A DNA stretch of 64,000 nucleotides from Rhodobacter sp. SGA-6-6 (GTDB lineage: Bacteria; Pseudomonadota; Alphaproteobacteria; Rhodobacterales; Rhodobacteraceae): the NCBI RefSeq assembly GCF_011043545.1, contig NZ_JAAKGP010000001.1:1-64000 (forward strand), written 5' to 3'. Each line of letters begins with the position of its first letter. Position 1 is the stretch's first letter. The position numbers and the translations under genes were made by a program. Positions 18,767-50,548 of the stretch are shown in pieces. The notes below the pieces were generated by a model that saw nothing but the letters and a program-made list of their open reading frames with translations, was not told the origin of the DNA and did no database searches.

Positions 18767-18975
18767 CGGGCGGGGACAGGCGAGGCATTGCCTCGCCCCC
18801 GCCCGTGCGGAAGGTTTCATCCGGAAACGCCGGCAGCACATCCCCCGAGAGGCCAGCGCCCGCCCGGGCGGGCGAGAAGCGCCCGCCAGGGGGCGGGCGG
18901 GCGCTGGCCGGGCCATTGAGGCCCGGCCGGTCCGGTTGACATGGCGCGCCAAGGCGAAGGCACCCGCCTTCGCCA
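18767..18975 (+). repeat. Oriented structured intergenic element, copy 1
   Basis: First of eight copies of a 208-213 bp element. It starts 28 bases after the EamA stop and runs CGGGCGGG, then the palindrome GCGAGGCATTGCCTCGC. A nested hairpin follows with outer GGCCAGCGCCCG and inner GGCGGGCG-AGAAG-CGCCCGCC, then CCGGGCC-ATTGA-GGCCCGG, and finally GGCGAAGGC/GCCTTCGCC. The strand given follows the orientation shared by all copies. The remaining 300 bases between this gene and smpB hold nothing else recognisable. Confidence 0.9.
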
Positions 18976-19050
18976 AGTCAGCCGGGCGAGGCTTTCCCGG
19001 CGGTAGCCGCACTGGACAGGGCGGCCGCCGCCGCCTATCTGGAAGCGACC

Positions 19051-19524
19051 ATGGTCCAGAAATCCGATCCCAATTCGAAGCTGATCGCCGAGAACCGGCG
19101 GGCGCGTTTCGATTACCACATCGAATCCGACCTGGAGGCCGGGATCGTCCTGCAGGGCTCCGAGGTGAAAAGCCTGCGCCAGGGCGGGGCCAACATCGGC
19201 GAGAGCTATGCCTCGGTCGAGAACGGCGAGCTGTGGCTGATCAACGGCTATATCGCGCCCTACCTGCAGGCCAAGACCTGGGGGCACGAGGAACGCCGGC
19301 GGCGCAAGCTGCTGGTCAGCCGCAAGGAACTGGCGCGGCTGTGGTCGGCCACCGCGCGCGAGGGGATGACCATCGTGCCGATCCGGATGTATTTCAACGA
19401 CCGCGGCATGGTGAAGCTGAAGCTGGGCATCGCCAAGGGCAAGAAGCTGTCCGACAAGCGCGAGACCTCGGCCAAGCGCGACTGGGACCGGCAGAAGGCC
19501 CGGCTGCTGAAGCAGGGCGGGTAA
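19051..19524 (+). CDS. smpB: SsrA-binding protein
   Basis: SmpB delivers tmRNA to stalled ribosomes for trans-translation. The 157-residue protein has the OB-fold core ([37 protein letters not shown]), the tmRNA-binding [16 protein letters not shown] loop and the basic, disordered tail [21 protein letters not shown] that enters the mRNA channel. Start ATG 19051. It is bracketed by two copies of the structured repeat (18767-18975 and 19556-19765). Confidence 0.97.
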
Positions 19525-19555
19525 GGCGGCCGCGGTGGGGTGAACCCCATTGCCT

Positions 19556-19765
19556 CGGGCGGGAACAGGCGAGGCACTGCCTCGCCCCGCCCGTGCGCAG
19601 CGGTTGCAGCCGGAGACGGCCGTAACACCAGACCCCGGGAGGCCAGCGCCCGACCGGGCGGGCGAGAAGCGCCCGCCGAGGGGCGGGCGGGCGCTGGCCG
19701 GGCCATTGAGGCCCGGCCGGTCCGGCTGAAATGGTGCGCTGTGGCGAAGGCGATGGCCTTCGCCA
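19556..19765 (+). repeat. Oriented structured intergenic element, copy 2
   Basis: Starts 31 bases after the smpB stop. The palindrome centre is GCGAGGCACTGCCTCGC, the loop of the third hairpin is ATTGA, and the terminal hairpin is GGCGAAGGC-gat-GGCCTTCGCC. It is on the same strand as the other copies. Only 580 bases separate its end from copy 1's end region, so smpB is flanked on both sides. Confidence 0.9.
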
Positions 19766-19937
19766 AGGAGGCTGCCCGCCCCTAACCCCTCCTGACCCCA
19801 CGTTAACCTTTCTTAACGGGGCTTCCCGGCGGGGGAAGGATGCGGCAGCATTCCCCTGCCCCCGGCGCGCGGCCTGCGCGATACAGGGGGTGTGTGAACC
19901 GGCCGGAGAACCGGGCGGAACAGGGAAAGGTGGCACT

Positions 19938-20210
19938 ATGGAACTGATCATCCAGCTGATCGCGGGCGCGATCGGCGGCAATGCCGCAGGGGCGGCGGCG
20001 AAGAACCTCAGCCTCGGCACGCTGGGCAACTCCATCGCCGGGATCGTCGGCGGCGGCATCGGCGGGCAGATCCTCTCGGCGCTCGGCGCCGGCGGCGGGG
20101 CCGAGGGGCTGGACCTGGGCGCGATCGTGCAGAGCGTGGCAGGCGGCGGTGTCGGCGGCGCGGTGCTGCTGGCCATCGTCGGCGCGGTCAAGAAGGCCGT
20201 CGCCAAGTAA
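19938..20210 (+). CDS. Small glycine-rich protein, unknown function
   Basis: A 90-residue protein of alternating hydrophobic and glycine-rich stretches ([65 protein letters not shown]). The GxxxG-like pattern resembles glycine-zipper membrane proteins. Start ATG 19938 has AAAGGTGG upstream. It stands alone between a repeat copy and a strong terminator. No function can be assigned. Confidence 0.75.
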
Positions 20211-20232
20211 GCGGCCGGCAACGGCATCCCGG

Positions 20233-20263
20233 GGGGCCCCGCGCGCAAGCCGGGGCCCCTTTC
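20233..20263 (+). terminator. Intrinsic terminator after the glycine-rich gene
   Basis: GGGGCCCCG (20233-20241) pairs with CGGGGCCCC (20251-20259), followed by TTTCCTT. It lies 22 bases after the stop. Confidence 0.75.
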
Positions 20264-20334
20264 CTTCGGGCCGCCACCTTGCACTTCGCCCCCGGCCCGC
20301 GCTAGGACGGGAGCAGTTGCAGAAGGCCCGCGCG

Positions 20335-21201
20335 ATGACCCCATCCCCTGCCGACGACCCGAAGACGCTGGTTTCCACCGACTGGCTGGCCCGCCACCTG
20401 AAGGACCCCGATCTGCGGGTGCTGGATGCCAGCTGGTTCCTGCCCGCCTCGAGCCGCGACGCCCGGGCGGAATACGAGGCCGGCCATATCCCCGGCGCCC
20501 GCTTCTTCGACATCGAGGAAATCTCCGACCAGCGCTCGGACCTGCCGCACATGGCGCCGCCGGTCGAGAAGTTCATGTCCCGCCTGCGCGCCATGGGCGT
20601 GGGCGACGGGCATCAGGTGGTGGTCTACGACGGCTCGGGCCTGTTCTCGGCCGCGCGGGTCTGGTGGACCTTCCGGCTGATGGGCAAGACCGATGTCGCC
20701 GTGCTGGACGGCGGCTTCCCCAAGTGGAAGGCCGAGGGGCGCGAGGTCGAGGACCTGCCGCCGGTGGTGCGCGACCGCCACATGACCGTCTCGCGCCAGG
20801 CGGGGCTGGTGAAGGACGTCACGCAAGTCGCCCATGCCGCCAAGCTGGGGCTGGCCGAGGTGCTGGACGCCCGCTCCCCCGCCCGCTTCGCCGGGGCGGA
20901 GCCGGAGCCGCGGCCCGGCCTGCGCGCCGGCCATATCCCGGGGTCGAAGAACATCCCCTTCGGAACCCTGCTGAACCCCGACGGCACCATGAAGGACCCT
21001 GCAGCCCTGCGCGCGGTGTTTCAGGCCGCGGGGGTGGACCTGTCGCTGCCCGCCATCACCAGCTGCGGCTCGGGCGTCACCGCCGCGATCCTCGCGCTGG
21101 CGCTGGAGCGGATCGGCCACCGGGACTGGGCGCTCTATGACGGCTCCTGGGCCGAATGGGGCATGTATGAGGACCTGCCGGTCGCGACCGGCGCCGCCTG
21201 A
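20335..21201 (+). CDS. sseA: 3-mercaptopyruvate sulfurtransferase
   Basis: A 288-residue protein with two rhodanese domains. The first is inactive-type ([35 protein letters not shown]). The second carries the persulfide-forming Cys244 in [10 protein letters not shown], the loop type (CG[S/G]GVTA) characteristic of mercaptopyruvate sulfurtransferases rather than thiosulfate rhodaneses. It transfers sulfur from 3-mercaptopyruvate to thiols or cyanide. Start ATG 20335. The aminotransferase starts 6 bases after its stop. This fits a cysteine-to-mercaptopyruvate-to-sulfane-sulfur route, since such aminotransferases can act on cysteine. Confidence 0.93.
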
Positions 21202-21207
21202 GGACGC

Positions 21208-22389
21208 ATGATGCTGGAAAGCCTGAACCCGCAGCCGCAGGACAAGATCCTGGCGCTGATCGCGATGTTCCGCGACGACCCGAGGACCGACAAGATCGAC
21301 CTCGGCGTCGGCGTCTACAAGGACGCCACCGGCCTGACCCCGGTGATGCGCGCCGTGAAGGCCGCCGAGAAGAAGCTGTGGGAGGTGGAGACCACCAAGA
21401 CCTACACCGGGCTGGCGGGCGAGCCGGCCTACAATGCCGCCATGGTGGGGCTGATCCTGGGCGAGGGGTTCTCCGACCGCGCGGCCTCGGTCGCCACGCC
21501 CGGGGGGACGGGGGCGATCCGGCAGGCGCTGGAGCTGATCCGCATGGCCGCGCCCAAGGCGAAGGTCTGGATGTCGAACCCGACCTGGCCGAACCATCCT
21601 TCCATCGTGAAATACCTCGGGATGCCGGCCGCGGAATACCGCTACTTCGACGCCGCCACCCGCGGGGTGGATTTCGCCGGGCTGATGGCGGACCTGGATG
21701 GCGTGGCCGCGGGCGATGCGGTGCTGCTGCACGGCTGCTGCCACAACCCGACCGGGGCGAACCTGTCGCAGGACCAGTGGGACCAGGTGATCGCGCTCTT
21801 GCAACGGAAGGGCGCGGTGCCGCTGGTCGACCTCGCCTACCAGGGCTTCGGCGACGGGCTGGACGCGGATGCGGAAGCCACCCGCAAGGTCGCGGCCGCC
21901 TTCCCCGAGGTGCTGATCGCCGCCTCCTGCTCGAAGAACTTCGGTATCTACCGGGAACGCACCGGCATCCTGATCGCCCTGACCAGCCCCGACCGCAAGG
22001 CCGTGGTGCAGGGCAACCTGAACTTCCTGAACCGGCAGAACTATTCCTTCCCGCCCGACCACGGCGCCCGGCTGGTGACGATGATCCTGGAGGACCCCGC
22101 CCTGACGGCCGACTGGAAGGCCGAGCTGGAGGAGGTGCGGCAGAACATGCTGTCCCTGCGCAAGCAGCTGGCGGACGAGTTGCGCCGCGCCACCAACTCC
22201 GACCGCTTCGACTTCGTGGCGGACCACCGCGGCATGTTCAGCCGCCTCGGCCTGACCGAGGAACAGGTCGTCACCCTGCGCGAGAAGCACGGCATCTACA
22301 TGGTCGGCGACAGCCGCATCAACATCGCCGGGCTGAACGCCGGGACGGTGCCGGTGCTGGCCGCCGCCATCGCGCAGGTCGCGGGGTAA
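21208..22389 (+). CDS. Aspartate/aromatic aminotransferase
   Basis: A 393-residue fold-type I, subgroup I-gamma PLP enzyme that exchanges amino groups between aspartate or aromatic amino acids and 2-oxoglutarate. Lys243 in AASCSKNFGIYRERTG is the PLP lysine. LGVGVYKDATG, TYTGLAGEPAY, HGCCHNPTGANL and the substrate-carboxylate Arg near DSRINIAGL complete the signature. It resembles TyrB/AspC. It is co-transcribed with sseA. A structured repeat lies 67 bases after the stop. Confidence 0.93.
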   Translation: MMLESLNPQPQDKILALIAMFRDDPRTDKIDLGVGVYKDATGLTPVMRAVKAAEKKLWEVETTKTYTGLAGEPAYNAAMVGLILGEGFSDRAASVATPGGTGAIRQALELIRMAAPKAKVWMSNPTWPNHPSIVKYLGMPAAEYRYFDAATRGVDFAGLMADLDGVAAGDAVLLHGCCHNPTGANLSQDQWDQVIALLQRKGAVPLVDLAYQGFGDGLDADAEATRKVAAAFPEVLIAASCSKNFGIYRERTGILIALTSPDRKAVVQGNLNFLNRQNYSFPPDHGARLVTMILEDPALTADWKAELEEVRQNMLSLRKQLADELRRATNSDRFDFVADHRGMFSRLGLTEEQVVTLREKHGIYMVGDSRINIAGLNAGTVPVLAAAIAQVAG

Positions 22390-22456
22390 GCCCGGTCGGG
22401 GCGCGGACAGGCCTTCATCGCGGGTCCTGGGCACATTCCCATCAATGTGATTGCCG

Positions 22457-22665
22457 CGGGCGGGAGAAGGCGAGGCACTGCCTCGCCCCGCCCGTGCGGA
22501 CGGGTTCACCCGGAAACGGCGGCAGCCCTGAACTCCGAGAGGCCAGCGTCCGCCCGGGCGGGCGAGAAGCGCCCGCCGAGGGGCGGGCGGGCGCTGGCCG
22601 GGTCATTGAGGCCCGGCCGAACAAGGGGAAGCGGTGCGCTGTGGCGAAGGCGATGGCCTTCGCCA
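22457..22665 (+). repeat. Oriented structured intergenic element, copy 3
   Basis: Starts 67 bases after the aminotransferase stop. The third hairpin has a CCGGGTC arm opposite GGCCCGG, so one G-C pair is replaced by G-U (G-T). Its loop is ATTGA. The final hairpin is GGCGAAGGC-gat-GGCCTTCGCC. Nothing else is recognisable between 22390 and 22832. Confidence 0.9.
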
Positions 22666-22793
22666 GACAGGACGCGGACTTTCGGCACCCCTCGTCGCAG
22701 CGTCGATCCTCTCTGCGGCAGATTGCCCGACCTTTCGGCATTTTGCCTGTTTTCTGCGCAATCACCCTTCAAACCGCCTGAAAATTCCCCTAA

Positions 22794-24194
<1,401 letters not shown>

Positions 24195-24215
24195 CCCGCC
24201 TGCCGGCAAGAACAG

Positions 24216-24248
24216 GGGCCCGCGGCTGACCGCGGGCCCTTTGGTTTT
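24216..24248 (+). terminator. Strong intrinsic terminator of gdhA
   Basis: GGGCCCGCGG (24216-24225) pairs with CCGCGGGCCC (24230-24239) around CTGA, followed by TTTGGTTTT. It lies between gdhA and repeat copy 4, so that copy is largely outside the gdhA transcript. Confidence 0.88.
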
Positions 24249-24266
24249 CACGGATCACGGCTTGGC

Positions 24267-24479
24267 CGGGCGGGAACAGGCGAGGCACTGCCTCGTCCCC
24301 GCCCGTGCGGACGGGTTCACCCGGAAACGCTGGTGGCACGAGATCCCGAGAGGCCAGCGCCCGACCCGGCGGGCGAGAAGCGCCCGCCGAGGGCGGGGCG
24401 GGCGCTGGCCGGGTGCTTTGGGCACCCGGCCGGTCTTGGGTGAACCGTTGCACTGTGGCGAAGGCACACGCCTTCGCCA
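24267..24479 (+). repeat. Oriented structured intergenic element, copy 4
   Basis: Starts 72 bases after the gdhA stop and ends 12 bases from the convergent amtB stop. The third hairpin reads CCGGGTGC-TTTGG-GCACCCGG: both arms differ from the other copies (CCGGGCC/GGCCCGG) but still pair perfectly, a compensatory change. The first palindrome ends in CGT rather than CGC. Confidence 0.9.
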
Positions 24480-24491
24480 GACAGCCGGCGC

Positions 24492-25823
24492 CTACCCGTG
24501 ATAGGCGCTTTCGCCGTGCGAGGTCAGGTCCAGCCCCTCGCGCTCGGCATCCACCGGGACGCGCAGGCCGATCACCGCGTCCACCAGCTTGTAGAGGATG
24601 GCCGAGGCGACGCCGCACCAGACCACGGTGATCGCCACCGCAAGGATCTGCGTCCAGACCTGCGCGCCCATGGTCACGCCCTCGGCATAGCCCTGCCCGC
24701 CGAAGCCGGCCGAGGCGAGGATGCCGGTGCCCACGGCACCGATGATCCCGGCGACGCCGTGGATGCCGAAGACATCCAGGCTGTCGTCGTAGCCCGCCTT
24801 CACCTTGACCACGGCGACGAACCAGTAGGCCACCAGCGAGGCCACCGCCCCCAGCAGGATCGCCCCCACCGGGCCGACCGCGCCCGCCGCCGGCGTCACC
24901 GCCACCAGCCCGGCGATGATGCCCGAGGCCGCGCCGAGGGCCGAGGCCTTGCCGCGCGCCAGTTTCTCGACCAGGAGCCAGGCCACCACCGCGCCCGCCG
25001 TCGCGGTCATGGTGTTGATCACCGCCAGCGTCGCCAGCGTTCCCGCGCCAAGCGCCGAGCCGGCGTTGAAGCCGAACCAGCCGACCCACAGCATCCCCGC
25101 GCCCGCCACCGCCAGCGGCAGCGAATGCGGCGCCATGTTGTCCTTGCCGTAGCCGGTGCGCTTGCCCAGCAGGATCGCCCCCACCAGACCGGCGATCCCG
25201 GCGTTGATGTGCACCACCGTGCCGCCGGCGAAGTCCAGCACGCCCCAACCGAAGAACAACCCGTTGGCGTCCCAGGCCATGTGGGCGATGGGGAAATAGA
25301 CGAAGGTCACCCACAGCACCGAGAAGGCCACCACCGCGCCGAACCTCATCCGCTCGGCGAAGGCGCCGACGATCAGAGCCGGGGTGATGGCGGCGAAGGT
25401 CATCTGGAAGGCGATGAACAGGTATTCCGGGATGGTGCCGGATTCGGAGGTGGCGGTAACCCCTTTCAGGAACAGTTTGCCGAAGCCGCCGAAATAAGGG
25501 CTGTCCGAGCCGCCGAAGGCGAAGGAATAGCCGTAGACCACCCAGACGATCATCACCGTCGCGGCGACGGCGGTGACCTGCACCAGCACCGACAGCATGT
25601 TCTTGGCCCGCACGAGGCCGCCATAGAACAGCGCCAGGCCGGGCAGGATCATGAACATCACCAGCACCGTCGCCACGATCATCCAGGCGGTGTCGCCGCT
25701 GTCCAGGGCCGAGGCCGGGGCCTCGACCACCTCTTCCGCCACCTCCTGCGCCCAGGCGGGCAGCCCGGCCATCAGCGCCGGGGCCAGGGCCACCAGGCCC
25801 GAAAGTCTTTTCTTCATGTCCAT
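24492..25823 (-). CDS. amtB: Ammonium transporter
   Basis: The 443-residue precursor has a signal peptide (LSGLVALAPALMAGLPAWAQ) and eleven membrane segments. Family motifs include DTAWMIVATVLVMFMILPGLALFYGGLVR at the first helix, the pore region GVLDFAGGTVVHINAGIAGLVGA (with the first conserved His) and DVFGIHGVAGIIGAVGTG (second conserved His). Start ATG 25823 is preceded by GGAGGG and lies 16 bases after the glnK stop, the classical glnK-amtB operon. Expression is expected to respond to nitrogen status. Confidence 0.96.
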   Translation of the reverse strand: MDMKKRLSGLVALAPALMAGLPAWAQEVAEEVVEAPASALDSGDTAWMIVATVLVMFMILPGLALFYGGLVRAKNMLSVLVQVTAVAATVMIVWVVYGYSFAFGGSDSPYFGGFGKLFLKGVTATSESGTIPEYLFIAFQMTFAAITPALIVGAFAERMRFGAVVAFSVLWVTFVYFPIAHMAWDANGLFFGWGVLDFAGGTVVHINAGIAGLVGAILLGKRTGYGKDNMAPHSLPLAVAGAGMLWVGWFGFNAGSALGAGTLATLAVINTMTATAGAVVAWLLVEKLARGKASALGAASGIIAGLVAVTPAAGAVGPVGAILLGAVASLVAYWFVAVVKVKAGYDDSLDVFGIHGVAGIIGAVGTGILASAGFGGQGYAEGVTMGAQVWTQILAVAITVVWCGVASAILYKLVDAVIGLRVPVDAEREGLDLTSHGESAYHG

Positions 25824-25839
25824 CTGTCCCTCCGGCGCC

Positions 25840-26178
25840 TCAGAGCGCGTCGTCATCGGTTTCGCCGGTGCGCACCCGCACCGCATGTTCCACGTCGAGG
25901 ACGAAGATCTTCCCGTCGCCGATCTTGTCGGTCTTCGCGGTGGTGCGGATCGTCGCCACCACCTGCTCGGCCAGGGCATCGGCCACCACGATCTCCAGCC
26001 GGATCTTCGGCACGAAGTTCACCGCATATTCGGCGCCGCGATAGATCTCGGTATGGCCGGATTGCAGGCCGAAGCCCTTGATTTCAGTCACCATCATGCC
26101 GCGCACGCCGATCGCGGTCAGCGCCTCGCGCACCTCGTCCAGCTTGAACGGCTTGATTGCCGCGATGATCAGTTTCAC
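25840..26178 (-). CDS. glnK: Nitrogen regulatory protein P-II
   Basis: A 112-residue PII trimer subunit that senses ATP/ADP and 2-oxoglutarate and blocks AmtB when nitrogen is plentiful. The uridylylated Tyr51 sits in the T-loop (YRGAEYAVNF). MKLIIAAIKPFKLDEVREAL and GDGKIFVLDVEHAVRVRTGE are the two PROSITE-type regions. The start is GTG 26178 with GGAAGG upstream. Being next to amtB, it is named GlnK rather than GlnB. Confidence 0.96.
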   Translation of the reverse strand: MKLIIAAIKPFKLDEVREALTAIGVRGMMVTEIKGFGLQSGHTEIYRGAEYAVNFVPKIRLEIVVADALAEQVVATIRTTAKTDKIGDGKIFVLDVEHAVRVRTGETDDDAL

Positions 26179-26453
26179 ATCCTTCCCCTTCTTCCCTGCG
26201 GGACCCGGGGGTGGGCCCTTGCGGCCAAGCAGGCGGCATTTCGCAGTTGCAGCACAAGCGGACGCCGGGGCCGTGCCGCCCCGCAGCGGGCAAGGGCACG
26301 GATTTTCGGCAGTCCGCCGCGCCGCTGCCCGATCCTTGGGCGGCCGGCGCACGCGAATCGGCGCGCGGGGCGGCGTCCCGCCCTTCGCTTCCCGGCAAAA
26401 GCAGGTTATGGTCCGCGCCAATCAGATCGCGCAGCAGGCGGACAGGCAGGCCA

Positions 26454-28702: not shown

Positions 28703-28913
28703 CGGGCGGGATCAGGCGAGGCACTGCCTCGCCCCCGCCCGTGCGCAGCATGTCAAACGGAAACGGTTGCAGCCTTGAACCCCGAGAGGCCAGCGCCCGA
28801 CCCGGCGGGCGAGAAGCGCCCGCCGAGGGCGGGGCGGGCGCTGGCCGGGCCATTGAGGCCCGGCCGGGACAAGGGGAAACGTTGCGCTGTGGCGAAGGCA
28901 CGCGCCTTCGCCA
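28703..28913 (+). repeat. Oriented structured intergenic element, copy 5
   Basis: Starts 41 bases after the PBP stop and ends 40 bases before the convergent mlaC-like stop. The palindrome is GCGAGGCACTGCCTCGC, the third loop ATTGA and the final hairpin GGCGAAGGC-ACGC-GCCTTCGCC. No intrinsic terminator other than the element itself is seen between the two genes. Confidence 0.9.
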
Positions 28914-28953
28914 TAGAACCCACGGAAAAGAGGGCGGGGCTCACCCTCCCGAC

Positions 28954-33614: not shown

Positions 33615-33827
33615 CGGGCGGGAGAAGGCGAGGCACTGCCTCGCCCCCGCCCGTGCGCAGCGGTTGCACCCGGAGACGCTGGCAGCCCTGAACCCGGAGA
33701 GGCCAGCGCCCGCCCGGGCGGGCGTGAAGCGCCCGCCGAGGGGCGGGCGGGCGCTGGCCGGGCCTTTGGGGCCCGGCCGGGACAAGGGGGAAGCGTTGCG
33801 CTGTGGCGAAGGCACCGGCCTTCGCCA
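33615..33827 (+). repeat. Oriented structured intergenic element, copy 6
   Basis: Starts 56 bases after the HlyD-type gene and ends 87 bases before the ridA-like start, between two co-directional genes. The third hairpin loop is TTTGG rather than ATTGA, placing it with copies 4, 7 and 8. The final hairpin is GGCGAAGGC-ACCG-GCCTTCGCC. Confidence 0.9.
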
Positions 33828-37391: not shown

Positions 37392-37601
37392 CGGGCGGGA
37401 GCAGGCGAGGCATTGCCTCGCCCCCGCCCGTGCGTGGCATATCACCCGGAGACACTGGCAGCACGAGACCGGGAGATGCCAGCGCCCGACCCGGCGGGCG
37501 AGAAGCGCCCGCCGGGGGCGGGTCGGGCGCTGGCCGGGCCTTTGGGGCCCGGCCGGGCAAGGGGAACCCGCATCGCGTGGCGAAGGCACGCGCCTTCGCC
37601 A
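37392..37601 (+). repeat. Oriented structured intergenic element, copy 7
   Basis: Starts 44 bases after the phhB stop and ends 19 bases from the convergent peroxiredoxin stop. The nested central hairpin pairs further than in other copies (GCCCGACCC against GGGTCGGGC). The third loop is TTTGG and the final hairpin GGCGAAGGC-ACGC-GCCTTCGCC. Confidence 0.9.
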
Positions 37602-42770: not shown

Positions 42771-42830
42771 GACCAGCCCCTGCCGCGCTGCCCGGGGGGA
42801 AGCCGGGCCGGACGCGGCAGGGAGCGGTCC

Positions 42831-43088: not shown

Positions 43089-43318
43089 CGGATCATCCTT
43101 TCGTTCGATCTTCTGCAAGGCCGGCGCGCCCTCATCGGCCCGCCGCCCTGGCCATCAGTTGAACCCTTCCGCCCGTCCCGTCCAGCACGGCAGCCGACCG
43201 GCGGAATTCCCCCGCCGACGCGCGGCTTTCCCCCGGCCGGAAGCTGCCTGCGGTCGCCGGTTTCCCTTGCGCCGCCGATGCCGCCCGCCGGATCGGCGAA
43301 GAGGGGCCCGAACGCAAA

Positions 43319-43348
43319 GGGGCCGGGCAAGACTGCCCGGCCCCCGAA
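43319..43348 (-). terminator. Intrinsic terminator of the second EF-hand gene
   Basis: GGGGCCGGGCA (43319-43329) pairs with TGCCCGGCCCC (43334-43344) across a 4-base loop, with TTTG following on the minus strand. It lies about 20 bases after the stop at 43365. Confidence 0.8.
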
Positions 43349-43364
43349 CCCTTTCGCGGCAGCC

Positions 43365-43661
43365 TCAGCCGCCGGTGTTGGCCTCGTTCTGCTTGTCCTC
43401 GGCCTCGCCATGGACGTTGTCCTTCAGGACGTCGGTGGTGTCCCAGGCGATCCGCAGTTCCTCATCGGTGATGCTGCCATCCGCATCGGTGTCGATGATC
43501 TTGATGTCGTCGTCGGACAGGTCGACCCAGACCACCCGAAGCTCGTCGGCCGAATAGACGCCGTCGCCGTTGGTGTCGGCCACCACGGGGATGGCTTCCT
43601 GCGCCAAGGCCGGCGCGGCAAGCAGGCCCAAGGCGAACAGGGACATCGAGAAGAGTTTCAT
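43365..43661 (-). CDS. Small secreted EF-hand protein (second of pair)
   Basis: A 98-residue precursor with signal peptide (LFSMSLFALGLLAAPALAQ) and two canonical EF-hand loops, DTNGDGVYSADEL and DTDADGSITDEEL, joined by VVWVDLSDDDIKII. A hydrophilic tail follows (DNVHGEAEDKQNEANTGG). A paralogue of the gene at 42831-43088 but separated by 276 bases and its own terminator, so probably an independent transcript. Function unknown; likely extracytoplasmic calcium binding. Confidence 0.82.
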   Translation of the reverse strand: MKLFSMSLFALGLLAAPALAQEAIPVVADTNGDGVYSADELRVVWVDLSDDDIKIIDTDADGSITDEELRIAWDTTDVLKDNVHGEAEDKQNEANTGG

Positions 43662-43956
43662 CACAGAGTCCTTTCCGTATCTGTTGCATCTGCAGGCGGC
43701 CGTTGCAGCGGCGGCCCGTCGCTCAGGTGCTTTCCGCCAAGCCGGGCCCGATCCGGGGCCGGCGGCCTGGAGGAAATGCGCGGACAGAACCATCGCCTGT
43801 CAGAATCGTTCCCGCCACCGTCCCCGCCATCGGCGTTTCTCCGCCTCGAACGATCCGCCACATTTCCCCGGATAGGACGCGCCCTCGCCGCGTTCCTGCC
43901 CGATTTGGCCGCCAATACACGGGGATGACCTGGTATCTGCTTGCTTGGGGAGAGAC

Positions 43957-44862
43957 ATGGACCGACTGACCGAAATGGAAGCCTTCGCCACCGTGGTGGA
44001 TCAGGGCGGCTTCACGGACGCGGCCAAGAAGATGGGCATCTCGAAATCTGCCGTTTCGAAGCATGTCTCCGCCCTGGAAGCCCGCCTCGGCGCGCGGCTC
44101 TTGAACCGCACCACCCGCCGCGTCTCGCCGACCGAGATCGGCCTGGCCTATTACGACCGCGCCCGCCGGGTGCTGAACGACGCCGGCGAGGCCGATGCGC
44201 TGGTCACCTCGATGCAGTCGGCGCCCTCGGGCCTGCTCAGGATTTCCGTCGCCACCGATTTCGGGGTGAATCTGCTGTCGCCGATCCTGGGGGATTTCCT
44301 GCTGGAATATCCCGAGATCACCGTCAACATGGTGCTGAACAACCGCTATGTCGAACTGATCTCCGAAGGCTTCGACATGGCGATCCGGGTGGGAGAGCTG
44401 GAGGATTCCAGCCTGCGCGCCCGCAAGCTGACCGAGACGACGCGGCGGATGATCGGCTCCCCGGCCTATTTCCAGAAATTCGGCCGGCCGATGAAGATCG
44501 ACGACCTGAACGAGCACAAGCTTCTGCATTATTCCAACCAGGCCAACGGCAATGTCTGGAAGGTCACCGCGCCTTCGGGCGAGAAGCGGCAGGTGCGGTC
44601 GAACGGCTGGCTGACGGTGAACGACGGGCAGAGCCTCTTGAATGCCGCGGTCTCGGGCCTCGGCATCGCCTATCTGCCCAGCTTCCTTTACGCCGACGCC
44701 ATGCGCGAGGGACTGATCGAAGAGGCGATTCCCGGCCTGCCGACCGAGGTCCTGGGCATCTATGCCGTCTATCCGCCGGGCCGGTTCACCCAGCCCAAGG
44801 TGCGCGCCTTCATCGACTTCCTCGCCCGCCGCTTCATCGACAAGGGGCCGGACAACTGGTGA
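43957..44862 (+). CDS. LysR-family transcriptional regulator
   Basis: A 301-residue LTTR with N-terminal winged HTH (MEAFATVVDQGGFTDAAKKMGISKSAVSKHVSALEARLGARLLNRTTR) and a periplasmic-binding-like effector domain (about 90-295; GLLRISVATDFGVNLLSPIL). It belongs to the CrgA/DsdC-like group without an obvious effector. ATG 43957 has GGGGAGAG upstream; the ATG at 43945 lacks one. It diverges from the EF-hand gene at 43365-43661, which is its most likely local target by position only. Confidence 0.9.
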   Translation: MDRLTEMEAFATVVDQGGFTDAAKKMGISKSAVSKHVSALEARLGARLLNRTTRRVSPTEIGLAYYDRARRVLNDAGEADALVTSMQSAPSGLLRISVATDFGVNLLSPILGDFLLEYPEITVNMVLNNRYVELISEGFDMAIRVGELEDSSLRARKLTETTRRMIGSPAYFQKFGRPMKIDDLNEHKLLHYSNQANGNVWKVTAPSGEKRQVRSNGWLTVNDGQSLLNAAVSGLGIAYLPSFLYADAMREGLIEEAIPGLPTEVLGIYAVYPPGRFTQPKVRAFIDFLARRFIDKGPDNW

Positions 44863-44905
44863 TCCGAACTTGCCCCCGGTCCTCCCTCGGGCCGGGCTTG
44901 CCTGG

Positions 44906-44934
44906 CCGCGGTCCTGCCCCCGCCCGGACCGCGG
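44906..44934. terminator. Bidirectional hairpin between lysR and ompA-like genes
   Basis: CCGCGGTCC (44906-44914) pairs with GGACCGCGG (44926-44934). It sits between two convergent genes and directly abuts the ompA-like stop codon. Confidence 0.6.
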
Positions 44935-44935
44935 C

Positions 44936-45871
44936 TTACTGGGTCGAGGCCATCACGGCCTCGACCCGTCTGTTTTTCCGCCGGCCCTCTTCGGTCAGGT
45001 TGGTCGCCCGCGGCGCCAGCGGGCCGACGCCCTCGGCGCTGACCTGCCCGGCCGCGACGCCACGGTCCAGCAGCGCCTGCCGCACCGCCTGGGCGCGTTT
45101 CTTCGACAGGGCGATGTTCGCCTCCAGCCCGCCGGAATTATCGGTATGTCCGACCAGGGCCACCCGCCGCGCCGGGTCGGCCGCCAGCCACTCGGCCAGC
45201 GCGGTCAGTGAAGGGGTGTCGCCCGATTCCAGCGCCGAGGAGCCGGAGGCGAAGACCAGGTCCTCCAGCACCACCGCCCCCTCGGCCTCCAGCGCCGCGC
45301 CCAGGTCGCCGGGCGGCGGGGCGGCGGGCGCGGGGGCCGGCGCGACCGCCGGCACCGGATCGGGTTCGGCCGCAGCGGGCACGGCATCCGCCATCGGCTC
45401 CGGCGCGACGCGGGTCAGCTGGACGAAGCCGTAGCCGGGCGAGCGGCTGACCAGCAGGTTCACCACCTCCTCGCCCTTTTCGGCGGCGATGAAGCGGAAG
45501 TCGCCCAGGTCGACATGCATCCCCGGCTCCGGCATCACCTCGATGACGAAGCGGAAGTCGAAGCCGCCGCATCCCTTGGTCTCGCAGTCGAACAGGATGT
45601 CGTAGCCCTGCGCCAGCAGCTGTTCGCGCAACGGCCCGGCCAGTTCGGCCAGCGAAAGACGCGGCGCGTCCAGCTGCCAGGCCCGGCGATCCAGCGCGCC
45701 GGTGACCCGGCGGACCGGCAGCGCCCCCGCGGCGAAGGGGCCGGTCGGCAGTTCGACGCTGGCCGGGTTCTCGCTGGCCGCCTGCTGCCCCGCCACCGGC
45801 GCGGGCAGGGTGAGGTCCAGCGCGAAGGCCGGACCGGACAACAGGAGAAGCAGGGGAAGACAGCGATACAC
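44936..45871 (-). CDS. OmpA-family peptidoglycan-binding protein
   Basis: A 311-residue exported protein: signal peptide (VYRCLPLLLLLSGPAFA), a central domain with a Cys pair (FDCETKGCGGFDF) and a Pro/Ala-rich linker (about 160-190). A C-terminal OmpA_C-like domain follows (LVFASGSSALES, VALVGHTDNSGGLEANIALSKKRAQAVRQAL, GVGPLAPRATNLTEEGRRKNRRVE). The domain binds diaminopimelate in peptidoglycan, anchoring the envelope. The start is GTG 45871, with AAGG 8 bases upstream, which yields a proper signal peptide. Confidence 0.88.
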   Translation of the reverse strand: MYRCLPLLLLLSGPAFALDLTLPAPVAGQQAASENPASVELPTGPFAAGALPVRRVTGALDRRAWQLDAPRLSLAELAGPLREQLLAQGYDILFDCETKGCGGFDFRFVIEVMPEPGMHVDLGDFRFIAAEKGEEVVNLLVSRSPGYGFVQLTRVAPEPMADAVPAAAEPDPVPAVAPAPAPAAPPPGDLGAALEAEGAVVLEDLVFASGSSALESGDTPSLTALAEWLAADPARRVALVGHTDNSGGLEANIALSKKRAQAVRQALLDRGVAAGQVSAEGVGPLAPRATNLTEEGRRKNRRVEAVMASTQ

Positions 45872-45890
45872 GGCGGACCTTCGCAACGGC

Positions 45891-46604
45891 TCAGCCCTTG
45901 CGATAGTGGTAACGCCCCGCCTCGGCCATGCCCGCCCGGGCATAAAGCGCGCGGGCGGCGGCGTTCCGCTCGGTCACCACCAGCGACAGGATCTCTGCGC
46001 CCTGCCCGGCCGCCCAGTTGGCCGCGGCGCGCAGGAGATGGCCGCCCATGCCCTGCCGCCTTTGCCCCGGGCGCACCTCCAGCGCGTGCAGCATGGCGAT
46101 GCCGCCGTGCACCGCCACGAAGGCCGCGCCCGCGGGCCGGTCGCCGCCGCGGCCGAGGATCGCCGTGCGCGGCCCGCCGGTGCGCGCCATCACCTCCACC
46201 CGGGCCGGGCCGATGCCGCCCTCGGCCCAAAGCGCGCGGACGGTCTCCAGCGGCGGCCAGTGCGGGAAGGCGGCGAGGAAGGGCACCTCGCCCGCCAGCG
46301 CCGGAACCGGGGCGGCATAGGCGACCACGGGGTCATGCAGCCGGAATCCGCGCACTGCCAGCGCCGCATCCAGCGCCATGTCGGCGGCGCTTCGGTCGGG
46401 GTGGATGGCGAACAGCGGCTCCGGCATCGCGGCAAGCGCGGCCTCCAGATCGCCCTCGGTGAACGCCCCCTCCACCGTGGCGGCCGAGACCCTTTGCCCG
46501 CCGCCCCCGCCCTGCCGCAGGGTGAAGGGGCCAAGCCGCGTCCGGCCCGCCGCGGGCCATGTCGCCTCCATCACCTCGGCGAGGGTGGCCGGGGACAGGC
46601 TCAC
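45891..46604 (-). CDS. GNAT-family N-acetyltransferase
   Basis: A 237-residue acetyl-CoA-dependent acyltransferase. The C-terminal half has the GNAT core: GAAFVAVHGGIAMLHALEVRPGQRRQGMGGHLLRAAANWA (acetyl-CoA pyrophosphate loop RRQGMG) and LVVTERNAAARALYARAGMAEAGRYHYR. The N-terminal half is a degenerate partner domain. Substrate unknown. ATG 46604 overlaps the upstream gene stop (ATGA). Confidence 0.88.
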   Translation of the reverse strand: MSLSPATLAEVMEATWPAAGRTRLGPFTLRQGGGGGQRVSAATVEGAFTEGDLEAALAAMPEPLFAIHPDRSAADMALDAALAVRGFRLHDPVVAYAAPVPALAGEVPFLAAFPHWPPLETVRALWAEGGIGPARVEVMARTGGPRTAILGRGGDRPAGAAFVAVHGGIAMLHALEVRPGQRRQGMGGHLLRAAANWAAGQGAEILSLVVTERNAAARALYARAGMAEAGRYHYRKG

Positions 46605-47329
46605 TGTGGCTCTCCGAACAGCCGCACCAGTTGCATCATCGCCGCGTCCAGCCGGGCCGGATCGGTGCCGCGGATCACCAGATTGGTGCCGAAGGCGCCG
46701 TTCAGGTTGAACGGGTAGGAGCCCATCGACAGGTCGGGATATTCCGCCGCCAGCTTGCCGAATTCCGCCGCGATCTCGCCCTCGCCGCGCAGCACCCGCA
46801 GCGACTGCGACAGCAGCGGCGCGCCGCCGGTCAGCGTCGGCAGGATGCCGGCCAGCATCGCCTCGAAGATCTTCGGCACCCCGGCCATGACATGGACATT
46901 GCCGATGGAGAAGCCCGGCGCCACCGAGACCGGGTTGTCGATCAGGGTCGCGCCCTCCGGGATGCGGGCCATGCGCTGGCGGGCCTCGTTAAAGGGCAGG
47001 CCCTGGCGGTCGTAATGCTCCTGCAGCAGCGCCATGGCATCGGCGCGCGGGCCGATCTGCGCCCCCATCGCCTCGGCCACCGCATCGGCGGTGATGTCGT
47101 CATGCGTCGGCCCGATGCCGCCGCTGGTGAAGACATGGTCATGGGCCGCCGACATCGCCCGCACCGCGGCGACGATGGCGGCATGGTCGTCGGCCACCAC
47201 CCGCGCCTCGCGCAGGTCGATGCCGACGCGGGTCAGCTCCCCGGCCAGGTAATGCAGGTTGGAATCCCGCGTCCGGCCCGAGAGCAACTCGTCGCCGATC
47301 ACCACCATCGCGCCCGTCGGATTACCCAT
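46601..47329 (-). CDS. MoaB/CinA-N family molybdopterin-binding-like protein
   Basis: A 242-residue protein with the MoCF_biosynth domain. AMVVIGDELLSGRTRDSNLHYLAGEL, VFTSGGIGPTHDDITADAVAEA and GNVHVMAGVPKIFEAMLAGILP are typical of the CinA N-terminal domain. The CinA C-terminal amidohydrolase domain is absent, as in the stand-alone COG1058 proteins that include nicotinamide-mononucleotide or pyrophosphate-acting members. ATG 47329 chosen; coupled to the GNAT gene; diverges from map. Confidence 0.88.
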   Translation of the reverse strand: MGNPTGAMVVIGDELLSGRTRDSNLHYLAGELTRVGIDLREARVVADDHAAIVAAVRAMSAAHDHVFTSGGIGPTHDDITADAVAEAMGAQIGPRADAMALLQEHYDRQGLPFNEARQRMARIPEGATLIDNPVSVAPGFSIGNVHVMAGVPKIFEAMLAGILPTLTGGAPLLSQSLRVLRGEGEIAAEFGKLAAEYPDLSMGSYPFNLNGAFGTNLVIRGTDPARLDAAMMQLVRLFGEPQ

Positions 47330-47445
47330 CTGTCCGCCCCTCTTGCCGCCTGCGCCCCGGGTATATCGCCGGCGCCGCGGCAATCCAACCGCCCTCTGGC
47401 GTTTCACGGCCCTTCCGCCTATGTAGGGCCCGAAAGGACCCCGCC

Positions 47446-48255
47446 ATGGAAGAGACCCGCGCCCGCATCACCCGCGAAGGCATCCGCATCTACGAGGATG
47501 CGGATTTCGCCGGCATGGCGAAGGCGGGGCGCTGCGCGGCCGAGATCCTGGACCTGGTGGCGCCGCTGGTGAAGCCGGGGGTGACCACCGGCGCGCTGGA
47601 CGATTTCATCCGCGGAGAGATCGAGCGGCGCGGCGTGACCTCGGCCACCATCGGCTACAAGGGCTATCAGCACGCCAGCTGTATCAGCGTGAACCATGTG
47701 GTCTGCCACGGGATTCCGGGCGCCAAGCTGCTGGCCGAGGGCGACATCTTGAACATCGACGTGACGGTGATCGTCGACGGCTGGTATGGCGACACCTCGC
47801 GGATGTATGTGGCGGGCACGCTGCCGCGGAAGGCCGAGCGGCTGATCGAGGTGACGCACGAGGCGCTGATGCGCGGCATCGCGGCGGTGAAGCCCGGCGC
47901 CACCTTCGGCGACATCGGCCACGCCATCCAGTCCTATGCCGAGGCCAACCGGATGTCGGTGGTGCGCGACTTCTGCGGACACGGGCTGGGCCGGGTGTTC
48001 CACGCGCCGCCGAACGTGCTGCACTACGGCCGCCCCGGCACCGGCCCGGTGCTGGAGGAAGGCATGTTCTTCACCATCGAGCCGATGGTGAACCTTGGCC
48101 GGCCCGAGACCAAGGTGCTGGCCGACGACTGGACCGCGGTGACCCGCGACAAGTCGCTTTCGGCGCAATACGAGCATTCGGTGGGGGTCACGGCCACGGG
48201 CTGCGAGATCTTCACCCTCTCGCCCGCCGGCAAGTTCTTCCGCACCTGGGAATAG
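47446..48255 (+). CDS. map: Methionine aminopeptidase, type I
   Basis: Removes N-terminal methionine from nascent proteins. In 269 residues the five metal ligands are Asp105, Asp116, His179, Glu212 and Glu243 (NIDVTVIVDGWYGDTS, CGHGLG, TIEPMV, YEHSVGV). Also SVNHVVCHGIPG with the substrate-contact His. Start ATG 47446. The following 214 bases up to the thuA-like gene contain no recognised feature. Confidence 0.96.
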   Translation: MEETRARITREGIRIYEDADFAGMAKAGRCAAEILDLVAPLVKPGVTTGALDDFIRGEIERRGVTSATIGYKGYQHASCISVNHVVCHGIPGAKLLAEGDILNIDVTVIVDGWYGDTSRMYVAGTLPRKAERLIEVTHEALMRGIAAVKPGATFGDIGHAIQSYAEANRMSVVRDFCGHGLGRVFHAPPNVLHYGRPGTGPVLEEGMFFTIEPMVNLGRPETKVLADDWTAVTRDKSLSAQYEHSVGVTATGCEIFTLSPAGKFFRTWE

Positions 48256-48469
48256 GCCGGGGAACACATCGCACTCCGGTCGGTTCGAGGCAGGCCCCCG
48301 CCCTCCCCTTCCCGTGCAGACCCGTCTCATCGTGTCATCCCCCGCCCCTCGCCCTGTCATCCCTGCGAAAGCACCGGGTCCCGCATCGCCCGCCTTCCCT
48401 ATCGACCCGTCTTCCAAACCGCTTTGACTCCCGCTACCCTTGCCCCGCAACCACAAGAGGAATCGGCCC

Positions 48470-49258
48470 ATGTCCAGGATCCGCGTCACCGTCTGGGGCG
48501 AGAACGTCCATGAACGGAAATCCGCCGTGGTCCGCGGCGTCTACCCGCAGGGGATGCACCAATGCATCGCCGATGCGCTGAACGCCGCCGGCGGGATCGA
48601 GGCCGGCACCGCCACGCTGGACCAGCCCGACCACGGCCTGCCGCCCGGCCGGCTGGAGGAAACCGATGTGCTGATCTGGTGGGGCCATGCCGCCCATGGC
48701 GAGGTCCGCGACGAGATCGTCGAGCGGGTGACGCAGGCCGTCTGGTCCGGCATGGGGGCGATCTTCCTGCATTCCGCCCATTTCTCCAAGCCGTTCAAGC
48801 GCTTGATGGGAACCCCCTGCAACCTGACCTGGCGCGAGGCCGGCGAACGCGAGCGTCTTTGGCTGACCTCGCGCAGCCATCCCATCGCCGCCGGCCTGCC
48901 CGACCATTTCGAGCTGGAGCACGAGGAGATGTATGGCGAGCCCTTCGGCATCCCCGACCCGATGGAGACCGTCTTCGTCTCCTGGTTCCAGGGCGGCGAG
49001 GTGTTCCGCTCGGGCGTGACCTACAAGCGCGGCGCCGGCAAGGTGTTCTACTTCCGCCCCGGGCACGAGACCTATCCGACCTATCACGACGCCAACATCC
49101 AGCGGGTGATCGCCAATGCCGTCCGCTGGGCGCACAATCCGGCGCCGCGGCTGGCCGATCCCTCCGCCGCCCCCAACATCCCGGTTGAAACCGCTTTGGA
49201 GCCGATCACCGAGCGCGGACCGAAGCTGCACGCCGCCGGAGAGGAAGGCTACAGATGA
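48470..49258 (+). CDS. ThuA-like trehalose-utilisation protein
   Basis: A 262-residue ThuA-domain protein (glutamine-amidotransferase-like fold): [57 protein letters not shown] and [16 protein letters not shown]. In rhizobia ThuA works with ThuB in the 3-keto-trehalose/sugar route. ATG 48470 has AGAGGAA upstream. The next gene, a Gfo/Idh/MocA dehydrogenase, overlaps by 4 bases, reproducing a thuAB-like pair. No sugar ABC transporter is in the window, so the actual sugar is unknown. Confidence 0.88.
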
Positions 49259-50307
49259 CCGTCCGCCTGCTGATCCTCGGCACCGGCGGCATGGCCAATA
49301 CCCAGGCCGGGGCCTTTGCCGCGATCCCCGGCGTGAGCCTTGTCGCGGGCGTCGATCCGCGGCCCGAGCAGTTGGCCGCCTTCGCCGCGAAGCACGGGCT
49401 GCCGCGGACCTTCGCCAGCCTGCAGGAGGCGCTGGACTGGGGCGAGTTCGACGCGGCGACCAACGTCACCCCCGACGCGGCGCATCACGCCACCACCCTG
49501 CCGCTGCTGGCCGCGGGCAGGCATGTGCTGTGCGAGAAGCCGCTGGCGACCAATGCCCCGGACGCCGAGGAGATGGCACGGGCCGCCGCCGCCGCAGGAG
49601 TGGTCGCCATGGTCAACCTGACCTACCGCAACGTCCCGGCGCTGCAGCAGGCCGCGCTGATGGTGCGCGAGGGCGTGCTCGGCCCGGTCCGGCATTTCGA
49701 GGCCAGCTACCTGCAAAGCTGGCTGACCCAGCCGGCCTGGGGCGACTGGAAGACGGAACCGCAATGGCTCTGGCGGCTTTCCACCGCGCATGGGTCGAAG
49801 GGGGTGCTCGGCGATGTCGGCATCCATATCCTCGACTTCGCCACCTTCGTCGCCGGCGAGGAGGCGGTGGAGGTCTCGGCCCGGCTGGCCACCTTCGACA
49901 AGGCCCCGGGCGGGCGGATCGGCGATTATGCGCTGGATGCCAACGACAGCGCGACGATGCAGCTGCGGCTGGCGGGCGGGGCGCTCGGCGTGGTCCACGC
50001 TACGCGCTTCGCCAGCGGCCACCTGAACGACCTGCGGCTGCGCATCTACGGCGAGCGGGGCGGGCTGGAGGTGCGGTTCGAGGGCGCGGTGTCGTCGCTG
50101 TCCGCCTGTCTCGGCCCGGACATGCCGGCGGCGGCCTGGCGCCCGGTCGATTGCCCGCCGGTCCCCACCGTCTACCAGCGCTTCATCGACGCGATCCGGG
50201 GCGAGCGGCTGGCGGAACCCGGCTTCGCCCGCGGGGCGGCGCTGCAAAGGCTCCTGGACGCCGCCGAGGAAAGCGCCAAGGCCGAGGGGCGGGCGGTAAG
50301 GCTCTGA
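49255..50307 (+). CDS. Gfo/Idh/MocA-family oxidoreductase (ThuB-like)
   Basis: A 350-residue NAD(P)-dependent sugar or polyol dehydrogenase. The Rossmann start is [22 protein letters not shown] and the family's EKP motif is [18 protein letters not shown]. The C-terminal beta-sheet domain has [18 protein letters not shown], where Asp and His are likely catalytic. Coupled to the ThuA-like gene. A structured repeat lies 33 bases after the stop. Confidence 0.92.
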
Positions 50308-50340
50308 ACGGTATTCGCTTTTGAAAATCCACGATCCGGC

Positions 50341-50548
50341 CGGGCGGGAGAAGGCGAGGCGCTGCCTCGCCCCGCCCGTGCGAACGAGGTCAACCGGAGA
50401 CATTGGTCACGCTAAACCCGAGAGGCCAGCGCCCGACCCCGGCGGGCGAGAAGCGCCCGCCGGGTCGGGGCGAGCGCTGGCCGGGCCTTTGGGGCCCGGC
50501 CGGACAAGGGGAAGCGTTGCGCTGTGGCGAAGACACACGCCTTCGCCA
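50341..50548 (+). repeat. Oriented structured intergenic element, copy 8
   Basis: Starts 33 bases after the dehydrogenase stop and ends 25 bases from a convergent gene. The palindrome centre is GCGAGGCGCTGCCTCGC and the third loop TTTGG. The final stem has one A in place of G (GGCGAAGAC), making an A-C mismatch. It is 12.7 kb from the nearest other copy, and none lies downstream of it in the window. Confidence 0.9.

Follow-up and report, generated by a model that had tools for sequence, protein, structure and literature searches.

A structured intergenic element of about 210 bp occurs in eight copies in the window (the whole stretch of 64,000 nucleotides analysed here) and in many more across the host genome, where it is polar with respect to the replication strand and unaccompanied by a REP-type (Y1) transposase. 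The element is on balance probably a non-autonomous, parasite-like mobile element of the REP/BIME type, a series of hairpins in fixed order that is copied or inserted by way of a folded single strand at replication forks. That it spreads to new sites is well supported; what is said below of the enzyme, the route of spread and any host function, we infer. Palindromic repeats of bacteria are often ascribed to RAYT, and here a large, ordered and strand-polar family lacks the RAYT hallmarks, with a core that is kept across a whole bacterial family by compensatory changes.

Copies in the window and layout of the element

The eight copies are 208-213 bp long, all intergenic and all on the + strand, and a profile scan at E ≤ 1 returned no further copy in the window:

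18767..18975, + strand, copy 1 (209 bp), EamA transporter gene on one side and smpB on the other
19556..19765, + strand, copy 2 (210 bp), 3' of smpB; the reference copy for the hairpin sub-parts
22457..22665, + strand, copy 3 (209 bp), preceded by an aminotransferase gene
24267..24479, + strand, copy 4 (213 bp), in the gap of convergent Glu/Leu dehydrogenase and ammonium transporter genes
28703..28913, + strand, copy 5 (211 bp), in the gap of convergent penicillin-binding protein and MlaC genes
33615..33827, + strand, copy 6 (213 bp), preceded by a HlyD-family gene
37392..37601, + strand, copy 7 (210 bp), in the gap of convergent pterin dehydratase and redoxin genes
50341..50548, + strand, copy 8 (208 bp), preceded by a GFO/IDH/MocA oxidoreductase gene

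An earlier note on this DNA had listed these copies as strictly intergenic and sharing one series of hairpins. All eight were recovered at their positions on the + strand, the hairpin series was found in every one, and none overlaps a called gene (0/8). Its term "near-identical" was too strong, since ungapped identity to one reference copy is 62-85% for the other seven and mean column identity across the eight is 81%. The linkers vary and the stems are almost invariant; in copy 4 the P3 arms are divergent (GGGTGC/GCACCC) with pairing retained. The hairpins follow the order H1, a core of P1, P2 and P3, and H4, as set out here for copy 2:

19556..19593, + strand, hairpin H1, outer CGGGCGGG/CCGCCCG and inner GGCGAGGC-ACT-GCCTCGCC
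19641..19699, + strand, core, with the long stem P1 GGCCAGCGCCCG ... CGGGCGCTGGCC around P2
19660-19674, + strand, P2, GGGCG-AGAAG-CGCCC, inside P1
19696..19718, + strand, hairpin P3, GGCCGGGCC-ATTGA-GGCCCGGCC
19743..19765, + strand, hairpin H4, GGCGAAGGC-GATG-GCCTTCGCC, then a final A

The first four bases of P3 in this copy double as the 3' end of P1. Read directly from the sequence, the 5' end CGGGCGGG and the 3' end CCTTCGCCA are noncomplementary and form no terminal inverted repeats.

Distribution in the host genome and in relatives

Far from being confined to the window, an outcome that the earlier note had set against its own reading, the core gives 196 matches genome-wide with a 16-base pattern (at most one mismatch) versus 6 for the reversed pattern, which excludes chance as the source of the copies. 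In the 2.35 Mb read out of the 4.29 Mb host genome there are 137 full-length copies (106 + 31), the set of 106 excluding 11 partial matches outside full copies. Within that set divergence is 2.1% at stem positions and 10.6% elsewhere, about 5-fold, for columns with a majority base of at least 70% and with totals taken from rounded rates. One of the 106 overlaps a gene call, at a predicted gene start. No strongly conserved promoter-like sequence was seen upstream in the 106-copy consensus and flanks, and no target-site duplication was detected, flank k-mer matches (k=3-6) standing at the shuffle level in the 91 of 106 copies whose ends could be parsed, the 15 unparsed copies being left out.

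Of 149 Rhodobacterales genomes sampled, 57 carry the core, spread over Rhodobacteraceae, and the complete set of four hairpins was seen in Frigidibacter albus, Fuscovulum blasticum and three MAGs; among 50 related stretches, L228 alone had no profile match at 1e-12. The earlier note had taken abundance across the genome, with restriction to close relatives, as a sign of novelty; the copies are indeed abundant, but the restriction did not hold. F. blasticum has one full-length copy and 11 partial matches, and the other 11 genomes of the genus have 0-1 matches. The element also sits at different places in relatives: nine syntenic junctions with a copy in Frigidibacter or MAG50 are all unfilled in the window genome (0/9), and profile searches around smpB in 11 relatives found no element, the window smpB locus returning its two copies. 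One site is common to three Frigidibacter species, with the inner H1 stem and H4 unchanged and the linkers drifting; there genome G161 has lost part of the core and G164 has an insertion within it, and another Frigidibacter copy is worn down to a remnant in G161. Carriage by phages was rejected: none of 50,697 phage records matched at blastn sensitivity, and two exact-pattern searches of viral contigs returned 0 and 1 stretches. Plasmids gave core-length matches only, on 6 Leisingera plasmids.

Covariation and alternative pairings

The stems are maintained by compensatory change. In an alignment of 30 cores, retrieved with model R1 and so biased towards sequences retaining that model's pairs, 98.3% of cells are paired, 11 of 21 pairs show double changes, and covariation is 0.296 as against 0.112 when shuffled and at most 0.060 when slid. 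(The alignment omits L033, L038, L040-L047, L140, L141, L143, L161, L164, L167, L170 and L172; three of its rows, L031, L037 and L039, belong to a single genome, and the L147/L169 pair is the same site seen in two genera.) Nested and side-by-side pairings of the four inner arms are both more than 98% paired, the arms tending to change together, and the alternative pairings are conserved across cores.

Across species, G.U outnumbers A.C in the stems by 33 to 1, which argues for a signal carried by a single strand, the sense strand being the one that would be folded. Among the 106 copies G.T is in excess by 46 versus 22 when cells are counted but by only 18 versus 15 when positions are counted, with long-range and linker pairs and columns 81, 82 and 153-155 excluded; without the column exclusions the figures are 119 versus 33, much of it due to one pair that is G.U in most copies. 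With DNA parameters, 95 of 106 copies have a more stable fold on the described strand than on its complement (mean folding energy -85.5 vs -81.5 kcal/mol).

Orientation relative to replication

In the window genome the described strand lies on the C-rich strand of its contig in 113 of 137 full-length copies, fork direction being inferred from the weak GC skew of contigs; for comparison, 722 of 1573 genes lie on the C-rich strand. Such a bias relative to replication, as in single-strand transposition of the IS200/IS605 type, is seen on seven of eight contigs (C1 30/33, C12 18/21, C23 21/25, C55 12/13, C6 8/8, C3 6/6, C33 10/13) and fails on C44 (8/18). The idea that C44 is a repABC plasmid is without support because repC is confined to contig C13. 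A search of the sampled sequence for a dif site and ribosomal operons, meant as a check on fork direction, found neither; single ftsK, gap and ftsZ matches all lie on the inferred leading strand, and the rplJ motif was too loose for use. Within same-direction gene pairs the element keeps its replication strand in 47 of 55 cases, including 29 of the 30 in which the two genes occupy the opposite strand.

The polarity is demonstrated for the window genome alone. F. albus contigs are mixed except C35 (5/5) and C38 (4/4), the Frigidibacter G161 chromosome has no bias by eye among the matches listed (assuming that the record starts at the origin), and GC skew computed in Frigidibacter over 20 stretches, each 4 kb long, is too noisy for a polarity call.

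KOPS and other polar motifs are chromosome elements with selected orientation, and the element could likewise serve the host, in gyrase action, nucleoid structure, segregation or fork handling. The polarity on seven of eight contigs would fit such a role, as would the conservation of stems over linkers within the genome and the unchanged inner H1 stem and H4 at the three-species Frigidibacter site. Nevertheless we consider it unlikely: the leaps in copy number between relatives count against it, as do the lack of any site in common with more distant carriers (0/9), the decay of the Frigidibacter copies and the unbiased C44.

Gene context

Copies are enriched in convergent gaps (43/106, against 236/1566 of all gaps) and depleted in divergent ones (8/106, against 237/1566). 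Orientation is not governed by the direction of neighbouring genes in the 106-copy sample; between same-direction genes, 36 of 55 copies are antisense to both. In other genomes, 10 same-direction sites are co-oriented and 8 opposed (18 sites among 35 loci, of which 26 were classed, with L170/L172 and L147/L169 counted twice). All eight window copies sit behind a co-oriented gene, as a 3'-UTR element co-oriented with its upstream gene would, but that candidate fails in the 106-copy sample.

Among the loci examined in relatives, no gene for a transposase or recombinase is a repeated neighbour of the cores. L161, L163 and L031 adjoin genes for ABC-F-type ATPases, which are common paralogues (L161 and L163 are 81% identical); L153 and L171 have a common neighbour ORF with no Pfam match; the pairs L147/L169 and L170/L172 each represent a single site found in two genomes; and the neighbour cluster L037/L038/L142 passes through the element itself. 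A recurring neighbour gene as partner was rejected on these grounds.

These data also bear on a structured RNA, such as a transcription terminator, an mRNA stabiliser or a multi-copy small RNA. The covariation, the G.U excess, the switch-like alternative pairings, the convergent-gap enrichment and the placement of the window copies would all suit an RNA, yet gene direction does not set orientation, in the host genome or elsewhere, recurring neighbours are few, Rfam gives no match and upstream sequence is not strongly conserved. An RNA role therefore seems to us improbable.

Possible routes of spread

The covariation might be mutational and not selected, arising by quasi-palindrome correction in which template switching copies one arm onto the other. 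The joint changes of the four inner arms, with both pairings conserved, are what arm-to-arm copying predicts, and quasi-palindrome mutations are described as strand-biased and as perfecting imperfect inverted repeats (PMC7202029). As a full account this is rather improbable, for it leaves the spread and the strand imbalance of G.U over A.C unexplained; it is compatible with a mobile element. Far less probable is a bias acting after insertion, by which copies exposing the stronger-folding strand on the lagging template or on the non-template strand of genes are lost or disfavoured: in most copies the better-folding strand falls on the inferred leading-strand template and there is a tilt against gene sense, but the energy gap is small, and the account is partial, a separate spreading mechanism being required.

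For the mobile element of the REP/BIME type that we favour, the proposed model is that a single strand folded at the replication fork would be copied or inserted by an enzyme supplied in trans, which would read the hairpins. Insertion at the fork, or purging of a harmful orientation, could place most copies on one replication strand, and selection against damage to genes and promoters could account for the intergenic placement, the convergent-end enrichment and the depletion of divergent gaps. Several observations count against this model: C44 is unbiased, polarity is unconfirmed in Frigidibacter, fork direction depends on a weak GC skew, the sense strand would, if it is the folded one, lie on the leading-strand template, the G.T excess within the 106 copies is slight when positions are counted, and no mobilising enzyme was found among the core neighbours or in the enzyme searches, which covered Y1_Tnp, IS110 and RVT_1. 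RAYT (Y1_Tnp, PF01797) was sought as mover and found in 0 of 13 genomes of the genus, while 5 of 14 controls gave a positive result. Nine of the 13 have IS110 transposases, though element-carrying F. blasticum does not, and 3 of 13 have reverse transcriptases; both were set aside because their presence does not track the element.

IS200/IS605 elements make no target duplication, and in this they resemble the element, as they do in the orientation biased to replication in the window genome; they differ in that Y1_Tnp is absent from its genus. They act on folded single strands in a manner tied to replication and, according to PMC6006769, use the lagging-strand template, whereas the described strand, if it is the folded one, lies on the leading-strand template.

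A more specific version, which we offer as a tentative possibility, is a Rhodobacteraceae-wide family acting as a single strand and spread and oriented at forks by an enzyme not of the REP type, with a strand-exchange core in which the four inner arms and a three-way common outer arm could re-pair. The overlapping arms provide a concrete structural hypothesis for in-vitro work, and the family a tractable system for asking what moves palindromic repeats that lack RAYT, and whether replication sets or filters their orientation.

Relation to named repeat families

The earlier note knew of no named family with this layout. None was found in the literature searched, and Rfam release 15 gave no match at gathering score for the window and 15 related loci; seven matches fell below threshold, the highest-scoring being RT-15 (21.5 bits; cut-off 82). 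That note mentions neither the polarity with respect to replication nor the overlapping arms, nor that a REP transposase is missing.

ERIC, RUP and other MITEs are non-coding, intergenic and of a similar size range, but they have terminal inverted repeats and a target-site duplication, and the element has neither. RIME (Rhizobium-specific intergenic mosaic elements) and Bru-RS, like the element intergenic palindromic repeats of Alphaproteobacteria, appear to differ from it in layout and taxonomic range. The comparison with REP/BIME and ERIC that the note drew "in spirit", for a longer and more ordered element, holds. Like REP, BIME and REPIN, the element is high-copy, intergenic and hairpin-forming; REP units are 20-40 bp and the element has four or more ordered hairpins in its ~210 bp. 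Unlike REP/BIME it keeps mostly to one replication strand in the window genome, and it lacks the Y1 transposase of REP/RAYT systems. REP-type repeats are believed to travel as folded single strands that are mobilised in trans (PMC8266576).

CGTC-tagged REPs, according to PMC3733652, predominate in Alphaproteobacteria, apparently without a dedicated transposase. They share with the element palindromic structure, alphaproteobacterial hosts and the apparent lack of such an enzyme; they differ by a CGTC tag and 8-9 bp stems starting with AT pairs, neither of which is in the element consensus. GTAG REPs carry a GTAG/CTAC tag, whereas neither the consensus of the 106 copies nor their flanks show a conserved GTAG; G.T stem pairs are also reported for GTAG repeats (PMC3733652). 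A separate GTAG-type repeat is present in the host genome.

Copies in the window and the genome

The eight elements described by the earlier note are present in the window, each 208-213 bp long and on the + strand, and their claimed intergenic placement was borne out; the flanking genes belong to a variety of Pfam families. They had also been called near-identical, but are instead diverged, with a mean column identity of 81%; a profile made from the eight found no ninth element in the window. In the window genome (4.29 Mb in 67 contigs), similarity search gave at least 40 copies among the matches listed, and a 16-base core pattern with at most one mismatch gave 196 matches versus 6 for its reversed control. 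A 2.35 Mb sample (the window plus stretches of contigs C1, C12, C23, C55, C6, C3, C33 and C44) holds 137 full-length copies (106 + 31) at E<1e-30. Scaled to the whole genome, this would give about 250 copies, but density is uneven and the core-pattern count is lower.

Conservation and pairing of the stems

Among 106 distinct copies, conservation is mostly 95-100% in the stems of hairpins H1, P1, P2 and H4 and drops to 40-60% in linkers; divergence from the consensus is 2.1% at stem positions versus 10.6% elsewhere. In relatives the layout is unchanged, and the arms are different yet compensated.

Arms in relatives
F. blasticum (L037), H1 inner: GGAAACGC/GCGTTTCC
F. blasticum (L037), P3: GGGTGC/GCACCC
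F. blasticum (L037), H4: GGCGGCGAC/GTCGCCGCC
Genus genome G008 (L032), H1 inner: GGAAAAGC/GCTTTTCC; H4 also different

F. blasticum loci L040-L046 carry a related repeat of different arrangement, with only part of the core (P1 enclosing P2, then P3) in common.

Of 149 Rhodobacterales genomes, 57 match a covariance model of the core at E<=1e-4. All of these belong to the family of the window genome, with 1-15 copies per genome except in the window genome (at least 31) and G026 (25), taken as Frigidibacter albus. Over 30 cores, P1 and P2 are 98.3% paired, with double changes in 11 of 21 pairs (45 cells versus 10.2 shuffled) and a covariation of 0.296, versus 0.112 shuffled and 0.018-0.060 slid. 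Side-by-side pairing of the inner arms (first with second, third with fourth) is also possible: it is 98.7% paired, with a covariation of 0.283 versus 0.142 shuffled and 0.016-0.117 slid. Four of its pairs show double changes, a number reached in 29 of 500 shuffles. Of the two folds, the nested one has the greater stability in 29 of the 30 cores.

In 23 of the 30 cores (2/2 GGAC, 1/1 GGTC, 4/7 GGCC and 16/20 GGGC), the 3' arm of P3 repeats the outer P1 arm, so that P1 and P3 share a strand and cannot both form fully. The shared arm may reflect selected strand exchange or be a trace of arm-to-arm copying. According to PMC7202029, template switching at quasi-palindromes has a strand bias and brings inverted repeats closer to perfect symmetry.

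Across species, the non-Watson-Crick cells of P1 and P2 comprise 33 G.U, 1 A.C and 10 other mismatches (p 4e-9 for 33 to 1, inflated by relatedness of the sequences). Within the window genome, G.T exceeds A.C by 46 to 22 in cells, but by 18 to 15 in positions. Counts of C>T and G>A are 64 and 40 at stem positions, and 85 and 191 at the others (odds ratio 3.6). These biases suggest that the described strand, as read on the window + strand, is the one that folds, either as ssDNA or as RNA. Of the two strands, it has the better fold in 95/106 copies with DNA parameters and 90/106 with RNA parameters.

Orientation with respect to replication and genes

The described strand lies on the C-rich strand of the contig in 95 of 106 copies on the first six contigs, and the sign of contig GC skew predicts the majority orientation in all six.

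Copies whose described strand is the contig's C-rich one
C1: 30 of 33
C12: 18 of 21
C23: 21 of 25
C55: 12 of 13
C6: 8 of 8
C3: 6 of 6
C33: 10 of 13, in agreement with the first six
C44: 8 of 18, polarity absent, GC skew weak

The total is 113 of 137, for which a binomial p of 5e-15 is a guide only, because copies on one contig share replication direction. By eye, 29 of 32 copies among the core-pattern matches listed for C2-C6, C9 and C11 follow the contig majority. The leading strand is usually G-rich; by this rule the described strand would be the leading-strand template, reading against fork movement, a direction that we infer because origin and terminus were not located in this genome. Between 160 and 337 kb of C44, orientation is mixed with a seeming shift around 275 kb that could mark an inversion or a terminus. 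In Frigidibacter, polarity is not established: most F. albus contigs carry both orientations, and GC-skew sampling in G161 was too noisy.

Element orientation is not set by gene direction. With genes called by our own simple caller, the 106 copies occupy convergent (43), same-direction (55) and divergent (8) gaps, versus 236, 1093 and 237 among all gaps. Where both genes of a same-direction pair are on the G-rich strand, 29 of 30 elements are on the opposite one; where both are on the C-rich strand, 18 of 25 elements share it. Antisense elements thus number 36/55 (p 0.03). In other genomes, with a class assigned at 26 of 35 loci, same-direction pairs hold 10 co-oriented and 8 opposed elements. 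In the window, each of the eight copies comes after a + gene, a pattern that taken alone would have misled on the orientation rule.

Spread and decay

A search of the genome collection for exact matches to H1 gave 50 stretches (perhaps not including the window's own record). Their labels are Frigidibacter, Fuscovulum, Gemmobacter or Rhodobacteraceae, and 49 also match the profile. Among 64 places compared between carriers and the window genome (53 unplaced, 2 non-syntenic), none of the 9 syntenic junctions, with both flanks within 8 kb, holds a copy in the window genome. The smpB loci of 11 relatives gave no profile match, while the window's smpB locus yields its two copies. One site is common to three Frigidibacter species: its linkers have drifted, H4 and the inner stem of H1 have stayed the same, and the core has lost a part in G161 and is split by an insertion in G164. 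A second Frigidibacter site has a full copy in F. albus, an eroded remnant in G161, no copy recognisable by eye in G162 and G163, and other inserted sequence in G164. In the metagenome-assembled genome MAG50 (L236, L242, L245, L249, L215), elements stand in direct pairs separated by about 28-51 nt, whereas copies in the window genome are spaced out. From the empty junctions, the shared and eroded sites and these pairs, it follows that copies spread, last for a time and then decay. No target duplication was found at element copies.

A putative mobilising enzyme and known repeats

The element is hardly present in phages and viral contigs. IS110 and reverse transcriptase were rejected as movers, as neither distribution tracks the element. 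Y1 transposase was found in 0 of 13 genus genomes, and no transposase gene recurs beside cores: the few core loci with neighbours in common share ABC-F-type ones or are one site in two genomes. With these results, we infer that an enzyme supplied in trans would move the element. At L161, L163 and L031, in three genomes, it adjoins ABC-F-type ATPase genes, perhaps by coincidence, perhaps as an old common site.

IS200/IS605 elements insert into the lagging-strand template, according to PMC6006769. If the folded strand is on the leading-strand template, that scheme cannot be carried over as it stands: the source of the G.U signal would be RNA or a different step, or else the loss of opposite-direction copies would determine orientation.

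The element works like REP/BIME but is without two defining features that were tested, the tag and the RAYT (the Y1 transposase of REPs). In PMC3733652, REPs are 20-40 bp long; the CGTC REPs described there come closest as a precedent for palindromes without a RAYT, although built differently. The claim that no named family has this layout held for the literature searched and Rfam, with ISfinder and RIME sequences outside the comparison; 'Rhodobact' is absent from the available text of the REP survey PMC12306157.

Other repeats

Window 56114-57968: direct repeats of 27-nt period, within a long ORF (55163-58804, + strand) with no Pfam match
Window 19534-19547 and 28933-28946: near-matches to GTAGGGCGGGGTTCACCCCGCC
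Window 13638-13735: copies of the further short repeats AAATATCCCCGCCGGAGGC, GGGGGCATTCTGCCC and AAATATCCTCAGGGG

The second, shorter palindrome GTAGGGCGGGGTTCACCCCGCC, with a REP-type GTAG tag, is frequent in the window genome, which is without Y1 transposase; several copies adjoin 210-bp elements. Its 14-mers occur 43-47 times in 1.66 Mb, and those of AAATATCCCCGCCGGAGGC, GGGGGCATTCTGCCC and AAATATCCTCAGGGG 21-29 times.
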